From Phycisphaerae bacterium (GTDB taxonomy: Bacteria; Planctomycetota; Phycisphaerae; UBA1845): a stretch of 33,696 nt of DNA. Shown here in pieces: positions 4,032-29,120 of this stretch. The notes beneath the pieces are model-generated. The model was given only the letters and a program-made list of their open reading frames with translations. It did not search any database and was not told the DNA's origin. The first letter of the stretch is position 1. Every line of letters begins with the position of its first letter. The translations under genes were made by a program, and so were the position numbers. The DNA lies in the NCBI GenBank assembly GCA_029260255.1, contig JAJDDR010000065.1, positions 1-33,696 of the forward strand, read 5' to 3'.

Positions 4032-4890
4032 TTAGTTTGAGTCCGAATCGGAATCGCTGTCCGAGTCAGAGTCGCTGTCGGAGCCACCGAACTCGAAGTG
4101 GCAATCCGAACCGGAATCGGAGTCGCCGTCGCTGTCCGAATCCGAATCGCCGTCGCCGGACGAGTCAGTTCCGCTGTCGGAATCTGAGTCTGTGCCGGAG
4201 TCGCTGCCCGAAGCGGAATCCGAATCCGAATCGGTGTCGCTATCGCTGTCCGAATCAGAATCTCCGTCGGAGTCTGAGTCGCTGTCGTCGCCGCCGGGTT
4301 GTCCGGCTGAGCAGATCAACTCGACGAGCTGTCCGTTCTCGACTGGAATCTGGGCACAGCCGATGTCGATGATGGCTATGACGTCATCGCAGGTACCGTC
4401 TACCTCGTAGCTGATCTGCAGCAGGCTTCCGCTGTCATCGGAGTCGTCACCGGAATCACTGTCGGAGTCCGATCCCGAGTCGCTGTCCGAATCAGAGTCC
4501 GAATCCCCATCGGAATTGGTGGAATCGCCATCCGAGTCAGAATCGCTATCGCTGTCGGTATCCGAATCACTATCGGAGTCGGTATCGCTATCCGAATCCG
4601 AGTCGCCGCCTGTTCCGCCGCTGATGGCACAGAGATCCAGGACGCATTCCTCGGTGCCTGCGGTCACGATCAGCAGGGCCACGTCGGATCTGATTCTGAG
4701 GACGTCACTGTCGGAATCTGAATCGCTGTCTGAGTCCGAATCGGAGTCACTGTCCGAGTCAGAGTCCATACCTCCATCAGAATCGGTGTCGCTATCCGAA
4801 TCAGATCCACTGTCGGAGTCGGTATCGGTTCCCGAATCGCTGTCCGAATCCGAATCCGCGTCGGAATCGCTGTCAGAATCGTCCGGGCCA
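4032..4890 (-). repeat. Low-complexity Ser-Asp codon repeats
   Basis: Several blocks of hexanucleotide-like repeats (on the plus strand GAATCN, GAGTCN and related forms) encode alternating Asp and Ser, with occasional Gly, Thr, Ala or Asn. The blocks lie at about 4035-4290, 4440-4610 and 4700-4890, separated by non-repetitive Cys-containing inserts. Codon choice varies between copies, so the amino-acid pattern is better conserved than the DNA. Repeat-rich DNA of this kind is prone to length change and to misassembly. The plus-strand ORFs with SESES runs are shadows. Confidence 0.85.
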
Positions 4891-5795
4891 GCGATTGCGG
4901 GCTCGGCCGCACAGATGACGACGCAATCACCGGGAACGGTGCAGTCGTTGGCGCAACCGTCGTCGTTGTTGGTGTTTCCGTCGTCGCATTCTTCGCCGTC
5001 CTCGACGATCCCGTTACCGCACTCGGGCACCGACATCACGAACGTGACGTGGAAATCGCCGCCACCGGAGTCGAATCCGCCGTGTAGGACTGCTGCGTCG
5101 AAGAGATCCTCGGCGTTCGTGATCGACGCGGTCGACGTGCCGTCGCCAAGGACGGGCAGGTTGATGTCGAAGAAGGCCAGCGTACCGATCTGATACGAGT
5201 TTCTCTCGGCGGAAACAACCGATATCGTGCTGCCGACGAGGTCCTGACCTGGACCCGTCGGTGCATCGTCCGTGCCCTCGAACGTCCAGTCGCCGGTGGC
5301 CGGGCTCGCGAGAATCGAGGATCCGCTGAGGGTGGTGAGTGTGCCGATAATGCGAAGCGTCCTGCCGAAGAACGTGACGCCGTCCAGATCGGCGCCGACA
5401 GGAATGTCGTTCACGAAAGCCGCGGCAAACGACGGTGATGCAAGCGTCGTATTGATGTCGGTGCCCTTGATGGTCCCGTTGAGCACGAGGTCCTCGGTGC
5501 CGGGAGGGTTGGCGACGGTGGCTTCGAACAGGACGTCGAAGTTCGAGGCGAGCGCGATGTTCGCCCGGTCGGTCACGACTCCCAGCGGGTCGCGATTGGT
5601 CGCCCTGAGTGACGTTGGTGCTTGGTCGAGGACCGAAATCGTGCCCGTGTTTGCATCGAACACGACACGAACGTCCGCGTAGCCCAGATCTACGGTATCC
5701 GCGCCGGCGGACGTCGATAACCCTACGAATGCACACATGACGGCGCAAAGCGCTGCCACCCCACCGAAAGAAATGTCCCGATTCTTCCGCTTCAT
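4032..5795 (-). CDS. Secreted Ser-Asp-repeat protein with a Myxococcus-type Cys-rich motif
   Basis: A 587-residue predicted exported protein. Residues 1-32 form a signal peptide ([12 protein letters not shown]..., hydrophobic core [14 protein letters not shown], cleavage near SAGA). Residues 33-255 are a globular domain I do not recognise. Residues about 257-290 carry [23 protein letters not shown], the Cys-rich repeat known from myxobacterial and planctomycetal surface proteins. The rest consists of long Asp-Ser runs broken by three short Cys-containing inserts. Such runs are highly acidic and likely bind calcium or act as an extended stalk. A strong AGGAGG lies 8 bases upstream of the ATG. 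There is no C-terminal membrane anchor or sorting signal; the protein ends in (SD)n-N. A hairpin terminator follows. Confidence 0.82.
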
Positions 5796-18988: not shown

Positions 18989-19933
18989 TCATCGACCTCG
19001 TGTCTTCTTTGCCGCGATCAGGGCGATGGCGGCTTGCTTCCTAAACTGCTGTCTCAGCTTCGCGTCTTCGGGGCGCAGACTATTGACCAAGTGGGCGCTG
19101 AGGTACCACAAGGGTCCGCTGGCCAGGCTGTTTTCTTTGTCGGTCTTGATCGCGATTTCCAGTTTGCCGAGCGCTTTCTTCGTTGCCTCGTCGCGCCGCA
19201 GTTGTTCGGAGCGGTCGACGGGCGTGTCGGACCCGCTCGGGTGCGGGAAGAACGGGACGTCCCTCAGGGCACGCGCGATTTCGACGCGTGCGGCTCTGCC
19301 GGACGCCGGTCCGAGTAAGGCGGATAGTGGCACGACGAGTGCCACGGCGATCCACAGCAAGCCGACGCGTGTGGCCCATCCGCGTACCATCACCGATGCC
19401 CAACGCGTCCATCGCGTGGCCGCGGCGCCGTCGCGCGCGTCTTTCTGATTCGATCCCGGATCCCGGCGTGCCGGCTGCGCGTACCAGGGACTGGCCGCGA
19501 GAACCCAGATGACCACGCCGAACATCAGATAGTTGGCGTTGACGAGCGTGCTGGTCAGGGGTGTAAGGACCGAGGTCTGCTGGACGTAGGGCGATTCATT
19601 GACGGCGATCGCGATGGCGGTCATGCCGCAGTGCGCGACGTACCCCGCAGCGGCGCGAAGCAAACGCTGAGGCCAGCGAAGCCAATACGATGCGAGGGTC
19701 AGTGCCACCACGGGCGGGAACATTGTGGCGTGCCAGTAGAGCGTTGTTTCGTCGCAGTACATGTAAGGCGCGGGATAGCCGGCGATTCCATGCAGCGCCT
19801 TGGTCAGCCACACCGTGAACGCTGCGTTGGCGTTGCCGGTGAGTCGCCACAGGATTCCCGCCGCGACCGCGAGCGGAATCGCGAGCGCTACGAAGCGATG
19901 CAGCGAGAATGTCGATCGGCTTCGTTCATCCAC
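18989..19933 (-). CDS. Polytopic membrane protein partnered with the exosortase, function unknown
   Basis: A 314-residue protein not recognised by family. About five membrane helices are visible (FVALAIPLAVAAGILW, ATMFPPVVALTLASYWL, GYVAHCGMTAIAIAV, ANYLMFGVVIWVLAAS, VGLLWIAVALVVPLSALLG), followed by a charged soluble C-terminal region of about 110 residues (KKALGKLEIAIKTDKENS, LRPEDAKLRQQFRKQAA). The GTG start at 19933 overlaps the last 8 bases of the exosortase-like gene, so the two are almost certainly translated as a pair. The partnership suggests a role in the same export or processing pathway; nothing else in the sequence fixes it. Confidence 0.72.
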   Translation of the reverse strand: MDERSRSTFSLHRFVALAIPLAVAAGILWRLTGNANAAFTVWLTKALHGIAGYPAPYMYCDETTLYWHATMFPPVVALTLASYWLRWPQRLLRAAAGYVAHCGMTAIAIAVNESPYVQQTSVLTPLTSTLVNANYLMFGVVIWVLAASPWYAQPARRDPGSNQKDARDGAAATRWTRWASVMVRGWATRVGLLWIAVALVVPLSALLGPASGRAARVEIARALRDVPFFPHPSGSDTPVDRSEQLRRDEATKKALGKLEIAIKTDKENSLASGPLWYLSAHLVNSLRPEDAKLRQQFRKQAAIALIAAKKTRGR

Positions 19934-20498
19934 GAGCTTTGCGCGTCCGTTTTGTCGTCCAGGCCGCCCACGCCAACCACAGCGGCGCCACGCAGGAGAT
20001 GAGGAACCACTGCATCAGCACGACGTGGGCGAAATGAAACAGCCTTGGGAGCCAGAGTGAGATCAGCACCAGTCCGGCCACGCGCAGGATGTTGAGGATC
20101 GTCACGCCGGCGATGCCGATCGCGAATCCGACGATCCGATCCCGCCATCGCGCGGGGTAGGCGATGGCCGCTGCGCAGAAGAGCGCCTTTGCAAACAGTG
20201 CTGTGCATTCCACGCTGACGATCAAATGCATGGCCCCGGCGGAGATCGTCACGCTATCGAGCTCGACGCGGGCGTCGAACCCGCCGGCGAGCCAGGCGGC
20301 GGTCCCGGCAACCAGTTCACGCAGGCCGAACACCCAGTCTGGTTCCTCACCGCTCTGGCTGAGCTGCATGATGTAGGCTTCGCCGAAGCCCAGCAGCAGC
20401 GTGAGTACGACCAACTTGATGACGAACATGGTCGCGATGCGGGCGGCGTCGTTCGCCGGCGGCGGGTCCCCCCGTTCCTGCTCTTGGTCAGTGGCCAT
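19926..20498 (-). CDS. Exosortase/archaeosortase-family transpeptidase (short, XrtH-like size)
   Basis: A 190-residue membrane protein with the exosortase catalytic arrangement: Cys98 in IVSVECTALFAKAL, Arg139 in NILRVAGLVLISL, and His158 (or His155) in FHFAHVVLMQW, each at the edge of a hydrophobic helix. Exosortases process proteins carrying C-terminal sorting signals such as PEP-CTERM and pass them to the cell surface. Size and layout resemble the short exosortase forms; the subfamily is not certain. The track start at 20675 is too early; the ATG at 20498 has GAGGTG about 10 bases upstream and leads directly to MATDQEQ... and the first helix. It is divergent from nadA and overlaps its downstream partner gene. 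Confidence 0.78.
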   Translation of the reverse strand: MATDQEQERGDPPPANDAARIATMFVIKLVVLTLLLGFGEAYIMQLSQSGEEPDWVFGLRELVAGTAAWLAGGFDARVELDSVTISAGAMHLIVSVECTALFAKALFCAAAIAYPARWRDRIVGFAIGIAGVTILNILRVAGLVLISLWLPRLFHFAHVVLMQWFLISCVAPLWLAWAAWTTKRTRKARG

Positions 20499-21832: not shown

Positions 21833-22321
21833 ATGGGCGAGACCTCGACCATGAAAGGGACACTCGAACGGGTCATCGTCACACCGGAGCAAATAGCCCG
21901 CCGCGAGGGCGAAATGGCGGAACAGGTCGCGACGCAGTACCGGAATGCAACTGAGCCCGTCGTCGTTCTTGTGCTCAACGGCGCTGGTTTTTTTCGCCGA
22001 TCTGATCGGTCGAGTGCCGATAATCATGACACTCGGTGTCATCGAGTTTCCCGCTACGCTGGACCGACGCGCAGATCACGGGGCGCGAAGCTGCGGATGA
22101 TTGCGGTCGAGCGGCCGGTGAGCCTGGAAACGGCGGTGCTATCGCGCAGCCCCAAGGTTGCCCCGGATGACACGCACCTTGATTACTTCGGGTTCGACAT
22201 CGCGACCGAGTTTGTTGTTGGGTACGGCTTGGACTACGATGGCCGATTCCGGAATCTGCCGCACATCGTGGTGCGCGGCCCGGAATACGCCAAGTCAGCC
22301 GTGACGGGCGAGTGCGGTTGA
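21833..22321 (+). pseudogene. hpt: Decayed hypoxanthine phosphoribosyltransferase
   Basis: The ORF has both ends of an Hpt-type purine salvage enzyme: LERVIVTPEQIARREGEMAEQV...VVVLVLNGAGFF at the start and DYFGFDIATEFVVGYGLDYDGRFRNLPHIVV at the end. The middle is damaged. After GAGFF the expected ADLIGRVPIIMTLGVI continues only in the -1 frame, as if one T had been added to the T7 run at 21988-21994. The original frame returns near 22044 (RVSRYAGPTRR), as if one base had been lost. The PRPP-binding loop, normally VDDI.DTG-like, is absent altogether: AKLR runs straight into MIAVERPVSLETAVLS. The product of 162 residues is short of the usual 175-185 and could not bind PRPP. Confidence 0.7.
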
Positions 22322-27689: not shown

Positions 27690-29120
27690 TCAGGCGGATG
27701 CGAAGTGCGCGTTGACCCGCCCCGGCTCCCGGCCGAGTCGGGACTTTAGCGTCATTTTGATTTGGAGCAATCCTTGAAGACCGACTTCACACCGCCGCTC
27801 TACGGTCATTGGGACGACAACGGGAGGCGTGCCCGTCGCGCGGGCGACCGCGCCGCACCAGCGATGCGCGAAGTCAAGATCCGTGCTCGGACGATGATCG
27901 AGGTGCCGTAGTACTTCTTCAACATGCAAGAACGAATCGCGGCGAACCAGGACGCATCCGAGGTCCACCGACGCGACGGAGAAGGGCTCTTTCAACTGCG
28001 GCAGCTTGATGTTCTGCGGGGCGACGAACGCGCCGCTTACCGGGTCGGGTCGCCAATATGACCAGCAGATTCTGCCATCGATCAGGTTCCGCGTAAGCGC
28101 GGACACGATCGGCGCATCGACGGACGCCAGCAAGCCCAAGACCGCGCCGTGAGGGACAATGTCGTCACCGATTACGAGCACGCGCTGGAACCGCGGATCG
28201 AGGCTCCTGATCCGCGCCGCGATATCAACGAAACAGCCGCGGACCGTGTCCGAGTGTACCTTTTCGATCTGGATACGGTCGCCGCATTCGCGCTCCCATT
28301 CTTGCAGGCGCTCGACCAATTGCATTCCGAGCCAGCCGGTACGCGGGACGCGTACGGCGACGAACACGGGGCTTGAATCATCGGGCGCCTGCAGCCGTGG
28401 CCACGGCGACACCGGAATGCGGTCGCTGTACAGCAGATCGAGATGGGTCAGATCGATCTGCTTGAGATGGTCCGCGACGACATGCTGGTCGACGGCGATC
28501 TCAAAACCCGCGCGGCGCGCCTTGCGAAAGAAGTAGACGTCCTCGCCGATCACCTCGCCCTCGAATTGCCCGACGAACGAACACCACGGCCGGTCGATTT
28601 GCTCGAACACCTCTCGCTGGATCAGGCACAACCCCAGTCCGGTGGCGTCGCACGTGAACAACCCCGGCGGAAAATCATCCGGGTCCATGCGTCGATAGCC
28701 CGCATCCGGCCTCTCGGGCGCGACGGCCGTTCCGCGCAGCGCCGGATCGTCATGCACCATGATGTTCGTCCCGACGGTTACTCCGCGTTCTTCATCCGGC
28801 GGACCGTAGCGTCGATGCAAGGTCGGGACGGGCGCGCAGACGATCGGCACACGGTGCGCCAGGAGCCGATCCAATGTGTCAGGTTGGGTCGTGACGTCGG
28901 TGTCGACGAACAGCAGGTGCGTCCACTCGGGGCAGTTCACGAAGCGCTCGATCAGCGCGTTTCGACAGCGGTCGTGCGGATGGTCGTTGTCCCACCAGAA
29001 GGCGACCCGCTCGGCGCCACAAGTCGCTGCCATCATCGCTCGCGAGGATTCCGCGCACGCTTGGTGCATCGAGCCTGTCGAAGGGACTGCTACCACGACA
29101 CGAGGTTGACGGTGATCCAT
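27690..29120 (-). CDS. Tandem two-domain glycosyltransferase-like protein (GT-A fold)
   Basis: A 476-residue cytoplasmic-looking protein. The first half starts RVVVAVPSTGSMHQACAESSRAMM and has NDHPHDRCRNALIERFV, THLLFVDTDVTTQ with a DTD motif near residues 72-74, PIVCAPVPT, and GLGLCLIQREVFEQI...GEDVYFFRKARRAG, the usual pattern of small family-2-like transferases that read a sugar nucleotide via an acidic motif. The second half repeats the plan: VFVAVRVPRTGWLGMQLVERLQ, RVLVIGDDIVPH near 318-320, PIVSALTRNLIDGRICW, SVASVDLGCVLVRRDSF...TDLDFAHRW. So the protein looks like a fused duplication. The acceptor and donor are unknown. There is no signal peptide or membrane helix. Neighbours are secreted proteins. 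Confidence 0.72.
   Translation of the reverse strand: MDHRQPRVVVAVPSTGSMHQACAESSRAMMAATCGAERVAFWWDNDHPHDRCRNALIERFVNCPEWTHLLFVDTDVTTQPDTLDRLLAHRVPIVCAPVPTLHRRYGPPDEERGVTVGTNIMVHDDPALRGTAVAPERPDAGYRRMDPDDFPPGLFTCDATGLGLCLIQREVFEQIDRPWCSFVGQFEGEVIGEDVYFFRKARRAGFEIAVDQHVVADHLKQIDLTHLDLLYSDRIPVSPWPRLQAPDDSSPVFVAVRVPRTGWLGMQLVERLQEWERECGDRIQIEKVHSDTVRGCFVDIAARIRSLDPRFQRVLVIGDDIVPHGAVLGLLASVDAPIVSALTRNLIDGRICWSYWRPDPVSGAFVAPQNIKLPQLKEPFSVASVDLGCVLVRRDSFLHVEEVLRHLDHRPSTDLDFAHRWCGAVARATGTPPVVVPMTVERRCEVGLQGLLQIKMTLKSRLGREPGRVNAHFASA

Follow-up and report, generated by a model that had tools for sequence, protein, structure and literature searches.

A Phycisphaerae genome encodes a short exosortase, P0001, together with an overlapping gene for a second polytopic membrane protein, P0002, and we consider it somewhat probable that the two proteins are an active exosortase and a catalytically dead homologue that form an obligate heteromer, a two-subunit intramembrane protein-sorting enzyme. 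The source genome is a 5.75 Mb metagenome-assembled genome (MAG) in 618 contigs, from which a 33,696-nucleotide stretch was analysed (referred to here as the window), and relatives of the locus likewise come from Phycisphaerae or Planctomycetota MAGs. Both open reading frames were confirmed on the minus strand (Table 1). As an earlier note on this DNA had pointed out, the P0002 gene begins inside the last 8 bases of the exosortase gene; the genes are tightly coupled, and the overlap probably entails translational coupling.

Table 1. Features of the P0001–P0002 locus, in window positions.
Feature	Position	Strand	Description and basis
P0001 short exosortase	19926..20498	(-)	190 aa; TIGR04178 43.9 bits, XrtH 66.8, XrtX 61.6, PF09721 27.5; AF2
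P0002 partner	18989..19933	(-)	314 aa, GTG start; AF2, hhalign to partner2, gene neighbourhood
P0001 stop / P0002 start overlap	19926..19933	(-)	8 bp, GTGGATGA
Cys98 codon, putative nucleophile	20205..20207	(-)	invariant in 19-row alignment
Arg139 codon, within N-x-x-R motif	20082..20084	(-)	invariant in 19-row alignment; EpsH motif in PMC1569441
His158 codon, putative catalytic His	20025..20027	(-)	invariant in 19-row alignment
P0002 residues 10-152, exosortase-like helix order, catalytic positions apparently replaced	19478..19906	(-)	hhalign, AF2 models
P0002 residues 208-314, predicted C-terminal helical domain	18992..19312	(-)	AF2 helices 210-224, 241-267, 273-284, 291-313

Six exosortase genes are present in the source genome. 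Two are full-length, one adjoining an EpsI-like gene (C200) and the other lying in a polysaccharide-export locus (C406; both neighbourhoods judged by eye). The four short ones comprise the window gene, which we call type A, a type B gene that also has a P0002-like partner (C302), and two genes (C235 and C582) that are each followed by a partner of another kind, about 210 aa long, referred to here as partner2.

Profile searches bear out the earlier note's description of P0001 as exosortase-like. Scores of 43.9 bits against TIGR04178 exo_archaeo (cut-off 23) and 27.5 bits against PF09721 (gathering threshold 25.7) identify it, at the level of sequence, as a genuine exosortase/archaeosortase-family protein. 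Assignment with the NCBIfam exosortase models, a check suggested in the same note, led to no named subfamily. XrtH (TIGR04177) gives the top named-subfamily score, 66.8 bits, under its cut-off of 86; XrtX (NF046081) gives 61.6 bits, under a cut-off of 170; and the NCBIfam scan placed P0001 below every curated cut-off of the other named short-exosortase models. P0001 is thus accepted by no named exosortase subfamily. The XrtH model matches all 13 of the P0001 relatives scanned (best E 5.7e-21), apparently none of which reaches its cut-off.

Across a 19-row alignment of P0001 relatives, Cys98, Asn136-x-x-Arg139 and His158 are invariant. His155, which the earlier note had placed with His158 in an exosortase position, is confined to type A and so is not the catalytic His, while the proposals for Cys98, Arg139 and His158 hold. 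We looked both for failure to match exosortase models and for loss of the Cys, Arg and His in homologues, either of which the earlier note had named as grounds against an exosortase, and found neither. The AF2 model of P0001 (pLDDT 84.8, pTM 0.71) is laid out as TM1, an amphipathic helix, a beta-hairpin, a short TM2, TM3 and TM4, or about four transmembrane helices in total (assigned by hand), with the amphipathic helix and the beta-hairpin predicted to precede the catalytic Cys.

The arrangement of Cys, N-x-x-R and His is shared with EpsH, in which these residues are predicted to lie near the outer membrane face (PMC1569441), and EpsH-type systems (TIGR02602, XrtA/XrtD, with EpsI and PEP-CTERM) similarly have a second protein that is encoded downstream or fused. 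Substrates with C-terminal motif-helix-basic tails would be a further shared feature. Full-length EpsH-type exosortases, however, cross the membrane eight times and carry C-x-G and H-x-x-x-G motifs (PMC1569441), the features called for by TIGR02602, and are about 300 aa long, whereas P0001 has 190 residues and about four transmembrane helices. It carries C-T-A and H-V-V-L-M; type B has C-T-G but likewise H-x-V-L-M. We also considered a split eight-helix exosortase. P0002 matches neither the N-terminal nor the C-terminal half of 28 full-length exosortases and is therefore not the missing half of such an enzyme, and EpsI models gave no match to it either.

The association between the two genes was surveyed in 114 genomes of the order, by means of P0002 profile matches spanning the family together with an exosortase-query search. 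P0002 homologues occur in 11 of the 114 genomes, and all 18 profile matches spanning the family are encoded immediately downstream of a short exosortase gene, which they overlap or nearly abut at the loci checked; the question raised in the earlier note, whether the partner always sits beside the exosortase, can thus be answered in the affirmative for the genomes surveyed. In a single genome, the exosortase and the P0002-type partner are naturally fused in one stop-free frame (G102; L017, G102:C4, about 895-2478). Seen from the side of the enzyme, 121 of the 127 short exosortases in the order are paired, 18 with a P0002-type partner and 103 with partner2; of the 6 with neither, at least 2 are cut by a contig end. 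Pairing of the P0001–P0002 type is far beyond chance. In a sample of 392 genomes of the phylum, with the top candidates per genome scored, the source genome was the only one to yield the P0002 family, apart from one weak C-terminal match.

Model scans assigned P0002 to no Pfam or NCBIfam family, and 14 of its relatives gave only scattered, weak, single-member matches to Pfam. The earlier suggestion that the partner could be a new accessory factor is supported: P0002 is likely such a factor and has no named family. Its apparent homology to degenerate exosortases, set out below, is beyond what the earlier note could see.

This homology is best approached through partner2, which is found in 52 of the 114 genomes, with as many as six copies in one genome, downstream of short exosortases (loci L117-L146), the gene position that P0002 holds as well. 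Profile comparison with hhalign relates partner2 to short exosortases (prob 97.5, P 8.6e-12), several of its members match exosortase models directly, and a search of 4280 ORFs with its profile returned, among non-self matches at E<1, only exosortases and P0002-family proteins. The partner2 alignment has no residue at the Cys position, 27 of its 32 rows keep the Arg (counted by hand), and no counterpart of the catalytic His was found in it. On these comparisons, partner2 reads clearly as a degenerate exosortase.

P0002 in turn resembles partner2. The hhalign comparison of the two families gives a prob of 77-79 and a P of about 2e-5, set against P values of 0.06-0.22 for reversed-profile controls, and its score of 44.4 was reached by none of 200 column shuffles that preserve hydrophobicity (null mean 18.7, sd 4.2, max 31.4). 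Directly compared with exosortases, P0002 shows weak similarity (prob 14, P 0.002; 2 of 200 shuffles reach the score), so the case for its homology to exosortases rests on the partner2 link. In the AF2 models, the helix order of P0002 (pLDDT 82.6, pTM 0.79) is that of an exosortase through residue 152 and is followed by an extra transmembrane helix and a helical C-terminal domain (208-314), which the positive-inside rule predicts to lie outside the cytoplasm. The P0002 family has no invariant Cys or His, and the aligned Arg position is occupied by Ala in type A and Gln in type B. Conserved loops of the partner carry P-A-P, W and S-P-Y. P0002 is thus probably, though not certainly, a diverged dead exosortase homologue in which all three catalytic residues have been lost. 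No PDB chain matched the exosortase profile, and fold searches of the PDB with the P0001 and P0002 models gave no match at E<=0.001.

These comparisons also bear on a different reading, which we consider unlikely, in which P0001 is a real exosortase and P0002 an unrelated polytopic accessory, such as a chaperone or a factor that hands over an acceptor lipid or polysaccharide, its resemblance to exosortases reflecting convergence of membrane helices. The weak direct similarity and the lack of an assigned family for P0002 are compatible with such an accessory, as is the existence of separately named accessory families for other exosortases (EpsI, PMC1569441; CrtB-associated TIGR04533, PMC12188702). 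The P0002–partner2 similarity nevertheless lies far above both the reversed and the hydrophobicity-preserving controls, and partner2, which occupies the same gene position, is to all appearance plainly exosortase-derived.

What the pair recognizes can be approached from the C-terminal sorting signals of the source genome. As reported earlier, none of the window's ORFs has a motif-helix-basic C-terminus. That absence had been taken to mean that the signal is unknown, a conclusion that does not follow: a non-exhaustive inventory, drawn from searches by family and selected stretches, yielded at least 28 PEP-CTERM tails above the Pfam cut-off and at least 20 IPTL-CTERM (TIGR04174) tails above the NCBIfam cut-off elsewhere in the genome, so the absence of a substrate in the window is uninformative. 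The search for tails, recommended in the earlier note, recovered both signal classes in these parts of the genome; IPTL-CTERM proved to track partner2, and a PAP(G/S)A tail discussed below is a lead only.

The connection between partner2 and IPTL-CTERM is visible at two levels. Tails of the form (I/V)P(T/A)VS(E/Q)WG adjoin several partner2-linked exosortases (L125, L126, L127, L137, L141 and L146), and the presence of partner2 agrees with that of IPTL-CTERM in 49 of 51 genomes of the family (39 with both, 1 and 1 discordant, 10 with neither; Fisher 9e-9, a value that overstates independence because the genomes are related). Partner2 pairs are thus most simply XrtH-like systems. In the source genome, the two exosortases with partner2 score 68.5 (C235) and 81.9 (C582) on the XrtH model and accompany IPTL-CTERM tails.

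P0001 shares with XrtH its short length and its top subfamily score, and one could suppose that the window pair is merely a divergent XrtH with IPTL-CTERM proteins as its substrates, all the more since the XrtH model matches every P0001 relative scanned and the genome holds IPTL-CTERM proteins above cut-off. Several observations make this improbable. P0001 falls under the XrtH cut-off, which apparently no member of its group reaches, and has a different partner; IPTL-CTERM follows partner2; and the partner2-linked exosortases form their own clade (support 100/100), outside which type A and type B exosortases fall. Furthermore, one genome (G054) contains type A and type B pairs and has no IPTL-CTERM match at E<=0.005. 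Given this genome and the clade structure, the window pair probably reads a signal other than IPTL-CTERM, and a PEP-CTERM-like signal would be the most likely substrate class.

A candidate for such a signal comes from the only substrate-like gene that directly adjoins the type A and type B loci. This gene, a divergent neighbour of a type A exosortase in G087 (L030 6499-7806 (-) / L077 10385-11692 (+)), encodes a secreted protein with a PAPGA-type tail (PIPAPGAVVLAMLGFGGVASMRRR) that ends PIPAPGAVVLAMLGFGGVASMRRRTND, and tails resembling this ending occur in the source genome (C451 and C104). The PAP(G/S)A variant of the PEP-CTERM tail was found in 8 of 8 type A genomes and also in about a dozen of the 43 others, in a search whose query rows came from type A genomes. 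PAPGA-type tails are moreover common throughout the family, and several of them lie next to full-length exosortases. For both reasons the PAP(G/S)A tail is a lead only.

Short exosortases with dedicated partners have precedents. In Flavobacterium johnsoniae, biofilm and surface colonisation are lost in the same way whether XrtF or the associated protein encoded next to it is deleted (PMC10936215). This short exosortase and its adjoining partner, both needed for one phenotype, are the nearest experimental precedent for the window pair, although P0001 scores just 32.2 on the XrtF model (cut-off 90) and no NCBIfam family matches P0002. The cyanobacterial exosortase CrtB (cyanoexosortase B) similarly has a gene for an uncharacterised protein immediately downstream (PMC12188702), but P0002 matches no NCBIfam model, that of the CrtB-associated protein (TIGR04533) included. 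Our literature search, in which the XrtH / IPTL-CTERM literature was thinly covered, found no paper joining an exosortase and a pseudoenzyme. The kind of system is thus already known; new, as far as these searches show, are the exosortase subtype and what the partner appears to be.

The favoured reading, an active exosortase in an obligate complex with a dead homologue, can be stated as a mechanism modelled on exosortases and archaeosortases. P0001 would be the active subunit. Its Cys98, together with Arg139 and His158, would sit on the outer side of the cytoplasmic membrane and cleave C-terminal tails of the motif-helix-basic kind, after which the protein would be handed on. P0002 is presumably a strongly diverged homologue from which the three catalytic residues have disappeared and to which a fifth transmembrane helix and a helical C-terminal domain have been added; it would most likely form an obligate heteromer with P0001 and help to choose or position the substrate. 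The constant presence of the partner, along with its apparent nature as an inactivated relative, suggests that these enzymes work as pairs of active and inactive subunits. A more speculative extension, possible though in our view somewhat doubtful, is that short exosortases are obligate heteromers with a dead homologue, that the dead subunits have diverged into two or more families, with a separate class of C-terminal signal for each, and that the window signal is distinct from IPTL-CTERM.

To our knowledge, exosortase accessory proteins are mostly without a known role. If the partners are inactivated copies of the enzyme, they offer a concrete, testable model in which the dead subunit carries specificity. 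This bears on how exosortases choose between the different C-terminal sorting signals of a single cell, and sets the IPTL-CTERM/partner2 class apart from the class of the window pair inside single genomes with up to seven exosortase genes.

The patchy distribution of P0002 homologues within the order might also be expected of a decaying or non-functional leftover. We regard this as very improbable: both ORFs are intact in the type A genomes with unbroken contigs, the triad is invariant, and the two proteins have diverged in parallel: pairwise identities of the exosortase correlate with those of the partner (r 0.93 in type A, 0.96 in non-A), the pattern that genes inherited together should show.

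Beyond the pair itself, the type A loci compared have no conserved neighbours. In 3 of 7 loci, a gene with weak resemblance to GT2 (PF13641, E 4e-4) is found close to the pair (window 27690-29120; L029 9193-10695; L076 3868-5394). Upstream of the type A pair in G084, a gene for a 395-aa polytopic membrane protein (L026 916-2100) gives a weak P0002 match (E 8e-6 among the loci and 1e-4 in the genome), which may be due to chance similarity between membrane helices. Another genome, G086, has a type A exosortase cut by a contig end (G086:C376:7-348) and a separate C-terminal fragment of a type A partner (L025, G086:C710), which could reflect a split assembly or a decayed pair. Elsewhere in the window, a hypoxanthine phosphoribosyltransferase-like ORF (21833-22321) matches its model in the last third only (profile 106-165), and its middle reads out of frame, which suggests a truncation, a frameshift or an assembly error in this region. 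Finally, the 587-aa protein encoded at window positions 4032-5795 begins with what resembles a signal peptide and ends in a long, acidic tail of SD repeats.
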